DNA from: Cytophagales bacterium
Lineage (GTDB): Bacteria; Bacteroidota; Bacteroidia; Cytophagales; Spirosomataceae
Length of the DNA stretch: 64,000 bases
Reading direction: 5' to 3'
Assembly: GCA_013298025.1 (NCBI GenBank)
Contig: JAAFJE010000006.1
Location: forward strand, 124,001 to 188,000
Positions 21,502 to 48,567 of the stretch are shown piece by piece. Numbering within the stretch: the first letter of the stretch is position 1; each line of letters begins with the position of its first letter. The position numbers and the translations under genes were made by a program. The notes beneath the pieces are model-generated. The model was not told where the DNA came from. It made no database searches and saw only the letters and a program-made list of their open reading frames with translations.

Positions 21502-22167
21502 TTAGCACACCCCATTGCGAACAGCCCAAGCAACCAAGCCCGCCACGTTTTTTGTACCCGTTTTTTCCATCAGTCTGTTTCTATGTCCTTCAACAGTTCT
21601 TGTACTGATAAACAGCTTATCAGCAATTTGTGGGGTGGTATAGCCTTCGCAGATTAATGTTAATATTTCCAGTTCTCTATCCGATAAATCAACAGGAAGG
21701 AGCAATTTGGTTTGTTCTCTTCTAAGAGGTTTTTGCGTAAAACGATTGTGCATTACCTTGATTAAGAAAGCTCCATAGTAATAATCTTCTTTTACTACGG
21801 TATAAATCGCTTTTTCTACTTCATCGGGGTCGGCATCTTTCAACAAATAACCATTTGCCCCTAACTCCATGAGGCGTGTCACAAATTGGTCTTCGTCGTG
21901 CATCGAAATAACAATAACCTTGACATGAGGATATGTTTTTTTGATTTGCTCGGTAGCCCTAATGCCATCTAAAACAGGCATTTGTAAGTCCATCAGGATA
22001 ACGTCTGGCATTTTGGCTGGTAGTGCATCAATCAGTTCTTGCCCGTTTGGTGCTTCAATAACAACCGCAAAGTCGTCATTCATATTATTCAACAAAGAAA
22101 CCATTCCTCGACGAAATAAGGCGTGGTCATCGGCAACAGCTATGCTAATTTTAGGTTGCTGGCTCAT
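21502..22167 (-). CDS. LuxR-family (NarL-type) response regulator
   Basis: A 221-residue transcription factor. Residues 7-125 are a receiver domain with the acidic pair VADDH, phospho-acceptor Asp60 in DVILMDLQMP, and Lys in LLKDA. The C-terminus is a LuxR-type helix-turn-helix, LSDRELEILTLICEGYTTPQIADKLFISTRTVEGHR. It follows the histidine kinase gene by 26 bases on the same strand and is surely its partner. A second, very similar kinase at 25.9 kb has no regulator beside it, so this protein may serve both. Targets are unknown. Confidence 0.92.
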   Translation of the reverse strand: MSQQPKISIAVADDHALFRRGMVSLLNNMNDDFAVVIEAPNGQELIDALPAKMPDVILMDLQMPVLDGIRATEQIKKTYPHVKVIVISMHDEDQFVTRLMELGANGYLLKDADPDEVEKAIYTVVKEDYYYGAFLIKVMHNRFTQKPLRREQTKLLLPVDLSDRELEILTLICEGYTTPQIADKLFISTRTVEGHRNRLMEKTGTKNVAGLVAWAVRNGVC

Positions 22168-22193
22168 GAATGAATTATAAAGTTTATCAAAAA

Positions 22194-22982
22194 TTAATGA
22201 TTTGAAGGATTGGTTATCGGCACGGCAATAATAAAACTTGAACCTTTTCCAATTGCAACATCAAATTTAACGACTCCTTTGATAAGACTTATACGGCTTT
22301 CGATATTTTTTATTCCGATACCTCTGCTAGGCTTATTCACTTCTCTTAAATCAAAGCCTTTGCCATCGTCAGAAACTTGCAAAATAAGCTGGGATTTATT
22401 TTCTGATAAAACAATATTGATTTGATTGGCTTGTGCGTGTTTTAGGGCATTGTTGACCAATTCTTGTGACGTTCTGTACAAGGCGAGTTCTATTTTTGCA
22501 TCGTATCGTTTGGTCAAATCACCGCATTCAAATACAATGGGTAGTCCTGTATGAGAAGTCATTTTGAGCGAAAAATCTTTGAGTGCTTCTATCAAGCCAA
22601 ATTCGTCTAAGGTGCTTGGCATGAGGTCTTTAGATATTCTTCTGACGTTAGAAAGGGCTTCGTTGAGGAGCTCTTGGGTATTGTTGAAAAGCTGTTCTCG
22701 TTTGGCTTCGTTGGCAAAAAATTTGTTCATTTGCGATAAACTCATGCGTGTTGCCGAGAGCAATGTGCCTATTTCGTCGTGCAAATCGCCCCCAATTTGC
22801 CTCCGAACAATCTCTTGGGAAAGAACACTGGCTTCGAGTAATGCCTCTTCTTGGGCGGCTTTCTGCAAACGCTGTCGATGGTAATAAAGTATAACAAAAA
22901 TAATAATAGCTGAAACGGGTAATAATATCGCTATTGTGCCAAAAACCACAATTTGTATCTCGTTCATTCTCATTTGTGACAT
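22194..22982 (-). CDS. Membrane sensor histidine kinase (HisKA_3 type), module A
   Basis: A 262-residue kinase with one N-terminal membrane helix (about 10-34) and no extracellular sensing domain. It is followed by a coiled-coil-like segment and the HisKA_3 dimerisation helix with His68 in GGDLHDEIGTLLS. The ATPase part has QELVNNALKHA, DDGKGFDL and SRGIGIKNIESRI. Because it has almost nothing outside the membrane, sensing is probably done by partner membrane proteins encoded just upstream. A strong GAGGAGG site lies six bases before ATG 22982; the alternative ATG 22967 aligns better with the paralogue. Its start overlaps the end of a 50-aa membrane protein gene. Confidence 0.9.
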   Translation of the reverse strand: MSQMRMNEIQIVVFGTIAILLPVSAIIIFVILYYHRQRLQKAAQEEALLEASVLSQEIVRRQIGGDLHDEIGTLLSATRMSLSQMNKFFANEAKREQLFNNTQELLNEALSNVRRISKDLMPSTLDEFGLIEALKDFSLKMTSHTGLPIVFECGDLTKRYDAKIELALYRTSQELVNNALKHAQANQINIVLSENKSQLILQVSDDGKGFDLREVNKPSRGIGIKNIESRISLIKGVVKFDVAIGKGSSFIIAVPITNPSNH

Positions 22983-23122
22983 ATAAGTCCTCCTCTTTTT
23001 TGCTTCACTAATTTTCTATGGAATACATAGACTAAGATAATAACAGATATGGAAAAAACCAACATGGCTGTTGTGCCGGTTTCTATAATGGAAATTATTT
23101 CGGAAGCATCTTGTTTAAGCAT
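22970..23122 (-). CDS. Small single-helix membrane protein, module A (50 aa)
   Basis: A small gene read from ATG 23120-23122 to TGA 22970-22972, overlapping the kinase start. The peptide begins MLKQDASEIISIIETGTTAM, continues as one hydrophobic helix (about 19-34), and ends in a basic tail with KQKRGGL. A 46-residue protein at 25771-25911, in the same position before the other kinase, shares QDASxIISIIxTGT, a helix ending VYV, and KQKxGGL. Conservation of sequence, topology and position between two diverged modules is good evidence that both are real genes. The function is unknown; a link between the multi-pass membrane protein and the kinase is inferred. Confidence 0.75.
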   Translation of the reverse strand: MLKQDASEIISIIETGTTAMLVFSISVIILVYVFHRKLVKQKRGGLICHK

Positions 23123-23164
23123 AGTTTTGTACAAAGAAAAGATAGAACAAATAAATACTTGTGT

Positions 23165-23818
23165 CTAGGTGGTATTAGACGCATTTGTGCCGTGTTTATG
23201 TAATAGAAATGCAATTCCCAAAGCTATGCGATGGATAATTAAAAGGTAATGGATTATATTCCAGTAAGATACAATGTTTGTATCTTTGCTATCGTATATG
23301 TACTTTGCATATAAATGGACATATACAACACCTGAAAAGTAAATTAAAACGCCAACACTTATCCAAAAATGAGGGTATGTGAGCACATTTTCGGTAGTTG
23401 AATCATAAAATAACTGATAAAAAAACGATAAGGAAAATAGCATTATACTAAGATTGACAATGCTGTGGGTATAAGAATTAATCGTATTAAAATCGTGCTG
23501 ATACCAATAAAAATAGGTTATACTAACCAATGCCAATGAGCCTAAAAACAAGACCGCTTTTTTGAGGAGAGGCAAAGATAACCTTGTATAAAAATAATAG
23601 CCCCAAAAGAGTAAGTCAGAATAGGTAATGGTATTATTTAAAAAATGATTCCTCCAGCCATTCAACGCAAAAATCCAGCCAACAATTTCGTACAATAGAA
23701 ATACAAACATATATTGATACACAAGGTTGAGTTCAGAACGCAATAGGTCTTTGCGATGAATATACCCGACAACCAAAGGAAATAACAAAAGTAAAGATGA
23801 AATACTAGCAGAAATCAT
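23165..23818 (-). CDS. Multi-pass membrane protein of sensor module A (unknown family)
   Basis: A 217-residue protein with about seven predicted membrane helices. It shares clear blocks with the product of 24413-25084: YEIVGWIFALNGWRNHFLNN, YSDLLFWGYY, FFYQLFY and HFWISVGVLIYFSGV. It therefore belongs to a family duplicated within this locus. It heads a minus-strand unit with the 50-aa protein, kinase and regulator. No enzymatic motif is visible. The family is not one I can name; as the kinase lacks a sensing domain, an input role is inferred. Confidence 0.7.
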   Translation of the reverse strand: MISASISSLLLLFPLVVGYIHRKDLLRSELNLVYQYMFVFLLYEIVGWIFALNGWRNHFLNNTITYSDLLFWGYYFYTRLSLPLLKKAVLFLGSLALVSITYFYWYQHDFNTINSYTHSIVNLSIMLFSLSFFYQLFYDSTTENVLTYPHFWISVGVLIYFSGVVYVHLYAKYIYDSKDTNIVSYWNIIHYLLIIHRIALGIAFLLHKHGTNASNTT

Positions 23819-24094
23819 TATATTTGAATCTGTTTGTTGAGTATGTAAAGATGATGGAAAATACGATTTTTTTGTTCTTTGTATTAAAAGTTTAAAGATA
23901 CAAAAAAGCCTGATTGCTTGCTATTGCATCTTCCCGACACAATACAAAAATAGCCATTGCTCAAGATAACAATTACGTACAAACCCCTTTTTTATAGCGT
24001 ATTTATACGCTATTTGATGAGTATTCCTTGAAAAAAACCTAGCACATATATAGCTTAGTGTTCTAGTTGAACCTTTAACAATCATTTAACGACA

Positions 24095-24397
24095 ATGAGT
24101 CAAATAATTAATCCCGAAGAACACCCAGACGATTTTCAATCAGTATTAGGGCTAATCCAGCATTATCAAGACACAAAAAAGGAAAACTCCATTGATGCTC
24201 ATTTTCTTAGCAAAGACGCTATCCAGAAATTCCTAGATAATCCCGACTTTGATGCTTTTAAAGTACATCATGGGAGAACAAGTGAAGGAACAAGAACATT
24301 AGTTTTTGAAGGAGTAACTAAAACTGGAACAAGCTTGAATACCTATGTGGCCAACATTCCCGATTGTCCACCATCATGTAATTGGGAGAATTCCTAA
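24095..24397 (+). CDS. Hypothetical 100-aa protein at the head of sensor module B
   Basis: I do not recognise this protein. It is soluble and acidic at the start (MSQIINPEEHPDDFQSVLG), with a helical middle and a C-terminal part (TRTLVFEGVTKTGTSLNTYV) likely to be beta-strand, ending CPPSCNW. The two Cys of CPPSC could bind metal or be redox active, but nothing else supports that. It lies 15 bases before the first membrane protein of module B on the same strand. The preceding 276 bases hold no gene and must contain the promoters of both divergent modules. Confidence 0.55.
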   Translation: MSQIINPEEHPDDFQSVLGLIQHYQDTKKENSIDAHFLSKDAIQKFLDNPDFDAFKVHHGRTSEGTRTLVFEGVTKTGTSLNTYVANIPDCPPSCNWENS

Positions 24398-24412
24398 TAT
24401 ATTATATGTATT

Positions 24413-25084
24413 ATGACATTACTGTTAATTCCTCCAATAACTTATATTTCGTCTTTAACATTAATTATTCCAATAATTATTGGAATAATTAATGTTAAAA
24501 CAATTCATCAAACCCCTCTAAAAATCATATTTTACTATTGTTTTGTTTTTGCTTTTTATGAAATTGTAGGATGGGTATATGCAATAAACGGCTGGAGAAA
24601 TCACTTCTTAGCTAATTCCGTTGCTTATACAGATGTATTATTTTGGGGGTATTATTATTATCTTGTAATAAAGGAAAGGCTCAATAGGCGTTTTATTGTT
24701 ACACTAAGTATTGTGACACTCTCTGTGGTAATTTGGGTTCATGTAGGACATGATTATAACAGGGTGAATTCACTTGCCGTAAGTATGGTAAATATCACAA
24801 TGATTATCATTGCTCTGATGTTTTTCTATCAGTTATTGAATAGCCTAGAAGTAGAAAACTTATTTAAATACGCTCATTTCTGGATTGGAATAGCTGTTTT
24901 AGTCTTTTTTTCAGGCGTATTTTTTATGCTTATTTTTGCTGATTATATAAGTTATAACAAAAATAAAAATATCGTCCAATATTGGTATTTGAAAGACTAC
25001 TTATTATCATTTCATAGAATTTTCCTAGGTGCAGGTCTTTGGTATAGCAAAGAATTAGTGCAAAGTAAGACTTCAGTAAAGTAA
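24413..25084 (+). CDS. Multi-pass membrane protein 1 of sensor module B
   Basis: A 223-residue protein of about seven membrane helices, homologous to the product of 23165-23818. Shared blocks are YEIVGWVYAINGWRNHFLANS, YTDVLFWGYYYY, MFFYQLLN, HFWIGIAVLVFFSGV and SFHRIFLGAGL. Residues 14-29, its first membrane helix, are encoded by a perfect 46-bp palindrome (24454-24499). Codon use is very AT-rich. The ATG at 24413 follows the previous stop by 15 bases. An input role for the downstream kinase is inferred from order. Confidence 0.7.
   Translation: MTLLLIPPITYISSLTLIIPIIIGIINVKTIHQTPLKIIFYYCFVFAFYEIVGWVYAINGWRNHFLANSVAYTDVLFWGYYYYLVIKERLNRRFIVTLSIVTLSVVIWVHVGHDYNRVNSLAVSMVNITMIIIALMFFYQLLNSLEVENLFKYAHFWIGIAVLVFFSGVFFMLIFADYISYNKNKNIVQYWYLKDYLLSFHRIFLGAGLWYSKELVQSKTSVK
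24454..24499. repeat. Perfect 46-bp palindrome inside a coding sequence
   Basis: Each 23-base half is the exact inverse complement of the other with no central spacer (left half starts TTTAACATTAATTATT, centre CCAATAATTATTGG). It lies within the gene for membrane protein 1 and encodes part of its first membrane helix. Confidence 0.9.
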
Positions 25085-25152
25085 TAATATTTTACGATTT
25101 AAGGGTAGGAAATAGAGAGAATACTTTTGTATGATTAAATAGTACGTGTAAA

Positions 25153-25827
25153 ATGCTTAGAAGCCTTGTTTATGTATCATCGGTATCCGTTCTTCTTCCA
25201 TTGGTTCTTGCCTTGATAAGAATACGCTATCTCGATAGAGTATTAAAAATATTACTTGTGTATTTATTTGCATCACTTACAATTGAAGTATTCGCTACCT
25301 TTTGGGCGTTTGTGTTGCATAAGCCTAATCATTTTATGATTAATACCTTTACGGTGGTCGAATGTATTTTGATAAGTTTTATGTATCACCAAGTATTTAC
25401 GATTAGTTTCTTAAAAAGAATAGTACCCACTGTTACAGCCACTTTTACAGTTTTCTCAATTACTTTATTTATACTAAAATCGTTTTTCGTATTCAATAGT
25501 ACGATAAGTACCCTTGCTTGTCTGTTGATTAGCACTTGGGTGTTTGTTTACTTTTATCAGATTTTACAGCAGCTACAGTACCAAACATTGTTTCAAGTTC
25601 CTATGTTTTGGATAAGTATAGGTTGCTCTTTTTACTTTTCAGGGAATTTATTTTTGTTTCTCTACGGAGAAATTATCTTGAACGAAAAAAGTAAAATGCT
25701 TTATGCCAATCTTTGGATAATCTATTATATATTACTTTTCATCTTTAGAATCCTTTTAGCAGTAGGTTTATGGTTCAGCAAGACGCATCTACAATCATCT
25801 CTATTATCCAGACAGGAACAGCAGTGA
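25153..25827 (+). CDS. Multi-pass membrane protein 2 of sensor module B
   Basis: A 224-residue, about seven-helix membrane protein, more distantly related to the two other membrane proteins here. NHFMINTFT, FYQILQQLQYQTLFQVPMFWISIGCSFYFSGN and FRILLAVGLWFSKTHLQ correspond to blocks in those proteins. It follows membrane protein 1 by 68 bases. Its last 57 bases overlap, in another frame, the start of a 46-aa membrane protein gene, so the two are probably translated together. The function is unknown and an input role is inferred. Confidence 0.68.
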   Translation: MLRSLVYVSSVSVLLPLVLALIRIRYLDRVLKILLVYLFASLTIEVFATFWAFVLHKPNHFMINTFTVVECILISFMYHQVFTISFLKRIVPTVTATFTVFSITLFILKSFFVFNSTISTLACLLISTWVFVYFYQILQQLQYQTLFQVPMFWISIGCSFYFSGNLFLFLYGEIILNEKSKMLYANLWIIYYILLFIFRILLAVGLWFSKTHLQSSLLSRQEQQ

Positions 25828-25911
25828 TGTTATTCTTTTCTACTTCTATCATTGTTTTGGTGTATGTGTTACATGAGAGATTAATTAAACAAAAAATGGG
25901 AGGTTTGTAAA
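25771..25911 (+). CDS. Small single-helix membrane protein, module B (46 aa)
   Basis: A short gene from ATG 25771 to TAA 25909-25911, overlapping the end of membrane protein 2 by 57 bases in a different frame. The peptide begins MVQQDASTIISIIQTGTAVM, has one hydrophobic helix and ends in a basic KQKMGGL tail. It matches the 50-aa protein at 22970-23122 in sequence and position, which supports it as a real gene. The kinase gene starts 14 bases later. A role as linker or modulator of the kinase is inferred. Confidence 0.75.
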
Positions 25912-25925
25912 AGAAATAACAAAAA

Positions 25926-26696
25926 ATGGACGCTATAAAAATGGTCATATTAGGAACAGTTGCGATGCTGCTACCCATATCGGCCGTTATTCTATTTGTT
26001 ATTGTTTACTACCATCGTCAACGTATTCAACAAAAAGCCCACGAAGAAGCCCTACAGCAAGCGATGCTTGAGGCTAGTGTTCTTTCACAAGAGGTAGTGC
26101 GTCGCCAAATTGGGGGCGACCTGCACGACGAAATCGGTACGCTGTTGTCTGCTACCAGAATGAGCCTTGCTTTATTAAAGAAACATCACCTCGGTACATC
26201 CAAAAGCGAACAGCTATTCAACCAAACCCAAGAGCTACTCAACGAAGCCCTCAATAATGTACGGAGGATTTCTAAGGACTTGATGCCTAGTACCTTAGAT
26301 GAATTTGGTCTATTGGAAGCCTTGAAGGATTTTTCCCAAAAAATGACCTTGCACACCAAGATGCCCATTTCTTTTGTGTATGGTGAGTTGCGTAAACGCT
26401 ATGATGCTAAAATAGAACTTTCCTTGTACCGAACAGCCCAAGAGTTAGTCAATAATGCCCTCAAACATGCGGAGGCAAGTCAAATAAAAATTATATTATT
26501 TGAAGAAAATGCTGTGCTTTCTTTGCAGGTCATAGACGACGGAAAGGGCTTCGACCTAGGCGAAGTAAACAAACCCAACAGAGGCATTGGTATCAAAAAT
26601 ATTGAAAGCCGTATTAGCTTGATTCAAGGACAAATCAAATTTGATATTGAAATGGGTAAAGGCTCAAATTTTATCGTTTCTGTACCTTTGCAATAA
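25926..26696 (+). CDS. Membrane sensor histidine kinase (HisKA_3 type), module B
   Basis: A 256-residue paralogue of the kinase at 22194-22982, with one N-terminal membrane helix (about 6-28) and a helical linker. The HisKA_3 helix has His67 in GGDLHDEIGTLLS, and the ATP-binding blocks are QELVNNALKHA, DDGKGFDL and NRGIGIKNIESRI. It has no sensing domain of its own. It ends module B and is followed after 11 bases by the convergent thiamine diphosphokinase gene, so no response regulator is linked. The LuxR-type regulator at 21.5 kb is the obvious candidate partner. Confidence 0.9.
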   Translation: MDAIKMVILGTVAMLLPISAVILFVIVYYHRQRIQQKAHEEALQQAMLEASVLSQEVVRRQIGGDLHDEIGTLLSATRMSLALLKKHHLGTSKSEQLFNQTQELLNEALNNVRRISKDLMPSTLDEFGLLEALKDFSQKMTLHTKMPISFVYGELRKRYDAKIELSLYRTAQELVNNALKHAEASQIKIILFEENAVLSLQVIDDGKGFDLGEVNKPNRGIGIKNIESRISLIQGQIKFDIEMGKGSNFIVSVPLQ

Positions 26697-45279: not shown

Positions 45280-48200
45280 ATGAACTTTCCGTACAAAGCC
45301 TTGTATCGGTTGAACTTATGGGAAAAATCTTCTTGTGCTTTGCTGCAAGGAGCTTTTTGGAACAATTACCACATAACACAACAAAAGATTACCCAAATGC
45401 TTGGGATGCTTGTCTTCGGATTAAGCCTATATTTGTATTGCCCAACCATTTATGCCCAACGTACACTTGGAACGATTGATTTACGTCAAAAAAACATTAC
45501 TGCTACGAGCGAAAGCATTCCGCTCGATTCGTCGTGGCGTTTTTATTGGCAGCAATTTTATTCCCCTACGCTTTTAGCAACTCAACAGCCCAAGCCCAAT
45601 GCCTATATTCCTTTTACGCAAGTTTGGAATACATTACCCTTCCTTCAGCCGAAATTTGCCCGTAAAGCCTTTGGTTATGCAACTTACAGCTTGGATGTAC
45701 TGATAGACCACCGCAAAAATCCCACTATTTGCTTGAATGTGCCAGAGGTGTATTCGAGCTACAAACTTTGGATAAACAACCACCTTGTTGCCAGCAACGG
45801 ACAAGTTGCCACAAGAAAGGAACAGTACCGTCCGCAATGGTTGCCACAGCTTGTCAATTATGATGCCACAACCGACACCTTACATTTGGTGATGCACATA
45901 GCCAATTTTGACCATTACAAAGGCGGGGCATTCTTGCCTATCAAAATAGGCAGTACCACCGAACTCTACGAAGAACGAGAGCATGAATTGGCACTAGATA
46001 TGCTTGTGACGGGGATGCTGCTCATGGGAGCGATGTTGTTTTTTAGCCTGTATTTTATGGGCGAAAAAACGCAGGAAGTGTTGTTTTTTGCCATATTTTG
46101 TTTGTTTTTTATTTACCGCATCATCGGGGTCGATAACCTGTATTATTTGCACCATCTGTTTCCTACGCTAGATTGGCACGTGACCATACATATCGAATAT
46201 TTTGCCATGTATGCCTGTATTTTTACGTTTAGCGTTTTTATTCGTAAGTTGTATCCGAATGAAACCAAGGATGTTTTTCTCAAAATTATTTTGGGTAGTA
46301 CCTTGGGCTATATGATTACGCTTGCTGTTGCACCGATTCATGTGTTTACTTACCTATCCAACTTTTTCTACCTGATAATTCTCTTGTTTGTGACTTACAA
46401 TTTTATTGTCGTACTCAGGGCGTTTTTCAACCAACGCCAAGGCTCGTTTTTTGCCTTTTGGGGGGTATTGGTTTTTGGCATATCTATCTGTTTGAGTATT
46501 TTAGGTTTTTACAAAATCATCCCTTACAATCCGATGTATTTCTTTGTCGGATACATTGGCTTTATTTTCTTTCAAAGCCTTATTTTGCCCCATCGTTTTT
46601 CTGATACCATGCGCAAAGCAAGAGATTTGGCAGAACAAGGAGGCAAGGCAAAATCTGAATTTTTGGCCAATATGAGCCACGAAATCAGAACCCCTCTCAA
46701 TGGTATTATCGGGTTTACAGACTTATTATTGAAAACAAAGCTAGACGAAACCCAACAAAAATATTTAGCTACGGTTTTTCAATCGGCCAATGCCCTGCTT
46801 GATATTATCAACGATATTTTAGATTTTTCTAAAATTGAGGCTGGAAAACTAGAACTCATACCCGAAAAAGTTGACCTGCTCGAATTGAGTACCCAAGTGG
46901 TAAATATTATTTCGGTTCAAGCCGACGAAAAACGATTGGAAGTATTGCTCAATGTGCCACCCAATATTCCTCGTTTTACGCATATCGACCCTGTACGTTT
47001 GCGACAAATTTTGGTCAATTTGTTGGGTAATGCCGTCAAGTTTACCGATAAAGGCGAAATAGAATTAAAAATAGCAATCCTAGAGCATTTCCCCAATGGC
47101 GAAACCTCGTTGCGTTTCTCGGTAAGAGATACAGGTATTGGTATTGATGTAGAAAAACAAGAAAAAATCTTTGAAGCTTTTGCCCAAGAAGATGCTTCTA
47201 CCACTCGTAAATTTGGTGGTACAGGTCTTGGCTTGACCATCTCTAATCGCCTTTTAGGCCTGATGGAATCGCAATTGCACTTGCAGAGCATCAAAGGAGA
47301 GGGAAGTACATTTTATTTCGACCTTTCGTTGGTTTGTGAAGAAGGCGAGCCACTTCAATGGCAAGGCATTGAGCATATCAAAAAAGTATTGATTGTGGAC
47401 GACAACCACAACAACCGTAATATTTTGCAAGATATGCTTGCCCTCAAAGGCATTGCGTCGCAACAGGCAACCAATGGCATTGTGGCCCTTGAAATATTAG
47501 AGAAAGGCCATGTTTTCGACGTGATTTTGATGGATTTCCACATGCCTTATATGGATGGCATCGAAACGATTCGACATATTCGCAAAAAAACAAGCTATGA
47601 TAATCAGGCGATTATCCTTTTGGCAAGCTCTTCCGATGACCCTTATATTGGTCGTGCCTGCCAAGAACTAAGCGTGGCTCATCGCTTGTTGAAACCTATC
47701 AATATACAGCAGTTGTATAATGCTTTGGCAAGAATTAAAGAAGTTTCAGCCAACAATACCCTGCCCATATTCGATACGCAAACACAACAATTGGCTTTGC
47801 ATTCAGAAAATATTACGTTGATGATTGTAGAAGACAACCCTGTAAATATGCTTTTGGCACGTACTATTTTCAAAAGTTTACTGCCCCAAGCCAGTATTTT
47901 AGAAGCAGAAAATGGACAAATAGCCGTGAATTTCTATAAGCAATTTCATATCGACATCATCTTTATGGACGTACAAATGCCCGTGATGGGTGGCTACGAT
48001 GCCGCCAAGGCCATTCGGGCATTTGAGCAAGGCAACAGGCGTGTTCCGATTATTGCCCTCACGGCAGGAACAGTAAAAGGCGAACGAGAAAAATGCCTCG
48101 AAGCTGGCATGGACGACTACGTGACCAAGCCCGTGGTAAAAGCGACATTGGCACAAGCCCTCAACAATTGGATTGCCCTAGAATGGGGAACACAAGCCAC

Positions 48201-48567
48201 CGAAACATCGCCCCAAGTGCTTAATATTGAGCAAGAAGACGAGCATTTCGATAGGGTTTTGTTTGCCCAACGCCTCGACAACGATGCCGATTTTATGAAA
48301 CAATTGCTGTCTATTGCCCAGCAACAATTGGGGATTTTTGAACAAGATTTACAACAATTACTCGCCGAGAAAAACCTCAGTGCTTTAAAATCGCTTGGAC
48401 ATAAGATGAAAGGAACAGCCGTTTCGAGTTGTTTTCCTAACTTGGCGTATTGGTCGGAACGCCTCGAAAGGGTTGAGTCGATAGACCTAGAAGAAATGAC
48501 CAATATTGTGGAGCATATCAAGGAAGAATTTAAGATTTTACAAGAAATATTAAAGCATCATGCCTAG
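45280..48567 (+). CDS. Hybrid sensor histidine kinase with 7TMR-DISM input, two receivers and Hpt
   Basis: A 1095-residue one-protein phosphorelay. A signal segment ending near PTIYAQ is followed by an extracellular 7TMR-DISM type-2 domain (about 65-220), seven membrane helices (about 240-440) and HisKA with His near 467 ([15 protein letters not shown]). Then come the ATPase domain with FGGTGLGL, receiver 1 with Asp near 751 (VILMDFHMP), receiver 2 with Asp near 897 (IIFMDVQMP), and a C-terminal Hpt with His near 1041 ([11 protein letters not shown]). DISM domains often sense carbohydrate-like ligands. An internal ATG at 45397 would remove an odd 39-residue extension before the signal peptide and may be the real start. 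The final regulator is not linked. Confidence 0.92.

Follow-up and report, generated by a model that had tools for sequence, protein, structure and literature searches.

Why is a protein of 46 to 50 residues with a single transmembrane (TM) helix encoded between a multi-pass membrane protein and a sensor kinase? The question is raised by positions 21502-26696 of the window, by which we mean the whole 64,000-nucleotide stretch analysed here (positions 124,001 to 188,000 of contig JAAFJE010000006.1, Cytophagales bacterium assembly GCA_013298025.1). Two divergent modules in this region each carry a seven-helix membrane protein (MP), a HisKA_3 histidine kinase (HK) and, encoded between the two, a one-helix protein that we call the mini. 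The mini frames are real, conserved genes under selection. From our comparative analyses, we propose, at a probability of about 0.6, that the mini is a paralogue of the kinase's own N-terminal TM anchor and acts as an additional TM subunit placed between receptor and kinase. If this is true, the kinase's membrane anchor, once detached, gave rise to a regulator of the kinase, and new small membrane regulators could arise by a route that is simple and open to test.

The mini genes and their kinship with the kinase anchor

With the mini of the plus-strand module (mini B) as the query, a search of 222 genomes of the family gave matches in 12 genomes at E ≤ 0.1 and in nine, its own included, at E ≤ 1.6e-7. 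Its own genome holds two copies only, mini B and the minus-strand mini A, which are 67% identical and thus related, as a first-pass annotation made by a model from the sequence alone had stated. A profile of 13 mini rows matched 28 of the family genomes at 0.001. The profile scan found stand-alone frames at 13 loci in 12 genomes, each with E 8.5e-16 or better. All 13 lie between MP and HK, so that the order of membrane protein, mini and kinase suggested by the annotation is conserved. The remaining 16 genomes matched weakly (E 2e-4 to 1e-3) and inside frames of 269-331 residues; in 14 of them the match coincides with a kinase match, and in two it lies directly behind an MP. In an order-wide scan at most 18 candidates were scored per genome, and misses there are weak evidence.

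At eight of the 13 loci the mini frame starts inside the end of the MP gene and overlaps it by 46 or 58 bases; there is no such overlap in the minus-strand module of the window or in genome G152. In codons 20-44, which lie outside the overlap, the ratio of non-synonymous to synonymous differences (pN/pS) was 0.28 in the mini frame of eight sequences, whereas the two shifted frames gave 0.86 and 2.56; over 44 codons of ten sequences the mini frame had 0.32 (pooled pairwise, uncorrected values from pairs that are not independent). Conservation along the mini helix peaked at 98-99 degrees per residue, with none of 5000 shuffles equally strong, and one face of the helix, with I12, G16, M20, S24, I28 and V31, is conserved. 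The same periodicity was weaker in the kinase anchors (p 0.066 at loci with a mini, 0.023 at loci without). In-frame selection, position and the separation of profile scores together rule out chance frames. NCBIfam gave no match for mini A or mini B, the 13 minis had only weak matches in Pfam (best E 0.004, 17.7 bits against a cut-off of 25.8), and sequence searches of solved structures with the minis, the MP and the small protein described below returned nothing above cut-off.

The best reading of the profile comparisons is that the mini and the N-terminal TM anchor of the HK are probably paralogues, a kinship to the kinase that the first-pass annotation had missed. The mini profile matched the kinase N-termini of 36 mini-less loci with a probability of 95.6 and a score of 39.3 over 42 columns, and those of the 13 mini-bearing loci with a probability of 93.1 and a score of 34.0. 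Neither score was reached by any of 150 class-preserving column shuffles, in which hydrophobic columns were kept apart from the others (highest 22.5 for the mini-less and 19.5 for the mini-bearing set), and the seven MP helices, compared one by one, scored 6.9-15.4. These controls rule out that any TM helix would match the mini.

The minis carry residues absent from the kinase anchors (S24 and LV-x-x-LH) and are closer to each other than to any kinase anchor. Three minis from the distant genus g32 average 49.5-58.0 against the core minis and 24.8-28.7 against 49 kinase anchors; compared with the anchors of the kinases encoded beside them, they score 18, 23 and 13. Since their resemblance to other minis far exceeds that to anchors, even those of their own kinases, a separate recent copying of the anchor in this genus is not favoured.

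In a tree of 57 kinases, one clade (support 94/91) comprises the 13 mini-bearing loci, the kinase of G125 and two mini-less kinases (G176 and G178); the ten core mini loci within the tree have a support of 100/100. The stand-alone minis are retained at 13 loci in four genera. Throughout the clade a mini is present at every locus with an MP beside the kinase, except in G125, where the frame is interrupted in the assembly (L173:3080-3400) by real decay or sequencing error. The kinase and regulator are present in G176 and G178, and no MP, small protein or mini was detected beside them. One gain of the mini and one loss along with the adjoining MP would be the simplest account, although it is not decisive; such a joint loss would point to MP as the partner of the mini.

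Layout of the locus and the wider operon

Module A on the minus strand consists, in order, of MP_A, mini A, kinase A and a response regulator. Module B on the plus strand consists of a 100-residue protein ending in CPxxC, followed by MP_C, MP_B, mini B and kinase B. The features are as follows.

21502-22167, minus: response regulator, receiver plus LuxR/NarL-type helix-turn-helix (Pfam Response_reg 5.9e-29, GerE 2.3e-16).
22194-22982, minus: kinase A, one TM segment, HisKA_3, HATPase_c (TM prediction, Pfam).
22970-23122, minus: mini A, 50 residues, one TM helix (frame, profile scan).
23165-23818, minus: MP_A, multi-pass, seven-helix family (family profile match).
24095-24397, plus: small soluble protein, C-terminal CPxxC (relatives upstream of other MP-HK loci).
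24413-25084, plus: MP_C, second multi-pass protein of module B (family profile match).
25153-25827, plus: MP_B, seven-helix protein (AlphaFold2 model).
25770-25910, plus: mini B, 46 residues, one TM helix (frame, profile, selection, helix-face periodicity).
25926-26696, plus: kinase B, one TM segment, HisKA_3, HATPase_c (TM prediction, Pfam).

The first-pass annotation had placed mini A exactly; it recognized the 46-residue frame of mini B and set its start at 25771, one base off and out of frame. Each mini does follow a multi-pass membrane protein and directly precede a kinase without a sensing domain, as it had described. Its parts list of membrane protein, mini and kinase stands, and lacked the response regulator, the third MP (MP_C) and the CPxxC protein. 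The final 58 bases of MP_B overlap mini B. Kinases A and B are 73% identical (186/255), and MP_A shares 42% identity with MP_C and 29% with MP_B. The CPxxC small protein has a single match in the whole genome. The response regulator is the sole regulator adjoining the two modules; none lies downstream of kinase B, where the next larger frame is on the opposite strand.

In both kinases only HisKA_3 (37.8 bits in A and 39.5 in B, cut-off 24) and HATPase_c (42.3 and 44.2 bits, cut-off 26.4) pass the Pfam cut-offs, behind one N-terminal TM segment, a domain content that identifies them as predicted HisKA_3 sensor histidine kinases. The nearest solved relative of kinase B by profile was DesK (E 9.5e-15). 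With 106.1 and 101.4 bits, the kinases stay below the cut-off of 450 of the curated LiaS model.

At a threshold of 0.001, MP was matched in 170 of the 222 family genomes. In a phylum-level sample of 296 genomes, 56 had a match at 1e-6. We examined 61 loci with an MP upstream of the kinase (MP-HK loci), which were chosen and not random. A regulator follows the kinase at 59 of them, the exceptions being module B of the window and L175, which lies at a contig end, and a relative of the small protein is encoded upstream at 54, with CPxxC near the end in 48. To judge from these sequences, the conserved core across the Bacteroidota has four parts, namely a small protein with a CPxxC tail, MP, HK and a putative NarL-type regulator, with the mini mostly absent. 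Not every small protein has the CPxxC tail: six of the 54 lack it, among them those of the mini-bearing genus g32 and of G125. No description of the order MP, mini and kinase, or of the operon, was found in the open-access literature searched, which agrees with the annotation's view of the arrangement as undescribed. At L181, L182, L187 and L192 and at 24413-25827 of the window, MP genes occur in tandem ahead of one kinase, in many cases with CPxxC genes in alternation, as if several receptors fed a single kinase.

The AlphaFold2 model of MP_B, made from 11 sequences, has a mean predicted local distance difference test (pLDDT) value of 87.5 and a predicted template-modelling score of 0.82. It shows seven TM helices, the first in two pieces (2-11 and 14-22). 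Over 60 rows, loops 1, 3, 5 and 7 contain more lysine plus arginine (1.6-3.0) than loops 0, 2, 4 and 6 (0.8-1.4), and we therefore place the N-terminus outside and the C-terminus inside. A fold search with MP_B against solved structures yielded 436 matches, none at E 0.001 or better. By title, 48 of the best 50 of these are G-protein-coupled receptors (GPCRs) or rhodopsins, the other two being LYCHOS and an entry whose title reads just 'membrane protein'. Thermophilic rhodopsin 5azd gave the highest template-modelling score, 0.67. On the basis of this model we take MP to be a receptor-like seven-helix bundle and claim no kinship, as any such bundle may rank GPCRs or rhodopsins first. The retinal lysine is not conserved: a lysine in the core of the seventh helix occurs in 11 of the 60 MP rows and not in MP_B. 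In a viral structure library, none of the 93 matches for MP had E 0.001 or better. For all 11 MP sequences Pfam, which covers the LiaF family and 7TMR-DISM models, gave no model at E 0.1 or better, and NCBIfam gave no match for the MPs of the window (P0005-P0007).

The CPxxC small protein likewise had no Pfam family above cut-off in the members tested, and NCBIfam gave nothing above cut-off for it either. Our results draw attention to an operon type whose seven-helix and CPxxC proteins both lack a Pfam family above cut-off in those members. Its model is of lower confidence than that of MP_B (mean pLDDT 75.5), and none of 872 fold matches reached E 0.001 or was usable. Four relatives (L188:5588-6016, L039:4774-5253, L041:2688-3221 and L230:5841-6320) have an apparent lipoprotein signal or membrane anchor at the start and would therefore sit outside the cytoplasm.

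Proposed mechanism, objections and rival explanations

In the mechanism we propose, the mini would have arisen once inside an older operon of CPxxC protein, seven-helix MP, kinase and NarL-type regulator. MP would be the likely receptor, since one TM helix is all that the kinase has for input, and the signal of MP would reach the kinase through the membrane. Made next to MP, the mini would be orientated as the kinase anchor, running from outside to inside with its basic tail inside. It would thereby add a second, kinase-like helix at the MP-kinase junction, where its contacts with MP, the kinase helix or both would set the coupling of MP to the kinase. We infer the receptor role of MP, the physical contact and its sign, which may be activating or restraining. 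A bolder version, which we offer as tentative and rather doubtful, is that MP represents a family, so far undescribed, of free-standing seven-helix receptors in the Bacteroidota that resemble rhodopsins or GPCRs and drive a histidine kinase via single TM helices, that the receptor of one lineage binds a homologous helix pair (the kinase's own and the detached copy), and that the CPxxC protein is a ligand or co-sensor.

Several observations weigh against the mini as a TM subunit derived from the kinase anchor. No mini is present at 47 of the 61 MP-HK loci, while 13 have one and one has an interrupted copy. Because so many loci do without it, the mini is not needed for the basic pathway, and it is no general component of the system; loci with kinase and membrane protein but without the small frame are what the first-pass annotation had named as refuting its proposal. 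Spacing was measured at 36 mini-less loci: in 20 of them the MP and kinase genes overlap or adjoin to within about 6 bases, and in the other 16 they are 59 to 664 bases apart without a mini-like frame. The remaining 11 mini-less loci were judged by profile only. The support of 94/91 for the clade falls short of the usual 95 mark, the loss of the mini together with MP is a single event, and G176 and G178 each retain one weak MP match elsewhere in the genome (7e-14 and 9.6e-6). Two mini-like stand-alone frames (E 8.8e-10 and 2.9e-8) occur in G597, from another family of the class, and neither MP nor this kinase type was found near them. No MP match at 0.01 was obtained anywhere in G597, whose three kinase matches all lie within frames of 627 to 992 residues. 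Either the mini family is therefore wider than the proposed role, or hydrophobic helices receive exaggerated profile scores; for the operon minis, the shuffle controls argue against such exaggeration. The two G597 frames, L228:483-614(-) and L229:5381-5527(+), encode 43-48 residues with one helix. They average 57.4 and 59.5 against the core minis and 31.1 and 22.3 against the anchors, a comparison that is biased, as the frames were picked by the mini profile. Each lies behind the gene of a secreted protein that, to judge from its C-terminal sequence, looks sorted by the type IX secretion system.

Homology to the kinase anchor also suits two other explanations. The mini might be a decoy that, in the manner of a dominant-negative fragment, competes with the kinase TM helix for binding to MP or for a place in the kinase dimer and so keeps the kinase inactive. 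Repression of kinases by small membrane proteins is common, as with MgrB and PhoQ (PMC10576120, PMC8404706). The minis have residues of their own, however, and are nearer to each other than to any anchor, and therefore are not simple mimics of it; we regard a decoy as rather unlikely. Alternatively, the mini could be the remnant of a second kinase that lost its catalytic part and has no present function. Against such a remnant stand the in-frame selection and the maintenance of the 13 loci in four genera, although the G125 copy is interrupted in its assembly, and we give the remnant hardly any credence.

A role in translation alone, with the frame serving ribosome traffic from MP to kinase and the peptide incidental, would fit the MP overlaps at eight loci and the 20 mini-less loci at which MP and kinase overlap or abut directly. 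It is nevertheless very improbable, given the conservation of amino acids past the overlap, the helix-face periodicity, and the lack of an MP overlap in module A and G152. MP might instead be a transporter or an enzyme, its state monitored by the kinase and its stability supported by the mini. None of the 11 MP sequences matched Pfam, the fold matches were not significant, and kinases using transporters as sensors appear in excerpts of a published account (PMC8534201). The small size of MP and a seven-helix bundle nearest to receptors and rhodopsins are weak evidence in favour of a receptor, and we regard a transporter or enzyme as unlikely.

Comparison with known systems

Small TM proteins acting on kinases are already known. 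What sets the mini apart from them is its kinship with the anchor of the neighbouring kinase and the position of its gene, between those of receptor and kinase. MgrB, a PhoQ regulator like SafA and UgtS, resembles the mini in having about 47 residues and one TM helix and in acting on a sensor kinase through the membrane. According to excerpts of the published work, it contacts PhoQ along the TM helices and represses it, with its N-terminus cytosolic and its C-terminal part periplasmic (PMC10576120, PMC8404706), an orientation opposite to that inferred for the mini. Those excerpts state no homology of MgrB to a kinase anchor. PhoQ has its own periplasmic sensor, whereas the kinases of the window have only a TM anchor.

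Accessory membrane proteins serving as sensors for kinases form a general pattern in the sections consulted of two reports (PMC8534201, PMC3578759). In LiaFSR, Bce and Abx1-CovS an accessory membrane protein controls the kinase, as we propose for MP, and the same sections mention no one-helix third partner. LiaFSR also shares with the present operon the combination of membrane protein, HisKA_3 kinase and NarL-type regulator. It is set apart by the LiaS cut-off that our kinases miss and by the lack of a Pfam match for MP.

Sensory rhodopsin II and its transducer HtrII show that a seven-helix receptor can signal to the TM helices of a partner. MP differs in having no conserved retinal lysine and in its proposed partner, a one-helix kinase plus the mini. 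The 7TMR-DISM and LytS-type receptors are, like MP, bacterial seven-helix signalling proteins; their seven helices are fused to output domains, whereas MP is a separate protein without a Pfam match. BtsS is a receptor kinase of the seven-helix type, as summarized in part of one report (PMC10653868).

Elsewhere in the window, residues 728-820 of a 1095-residue frame (45280-48567, plus strand) resemble a receiver domain (profile E 8e-15), and the frame perhaps encodes a hybrid two-component protein.

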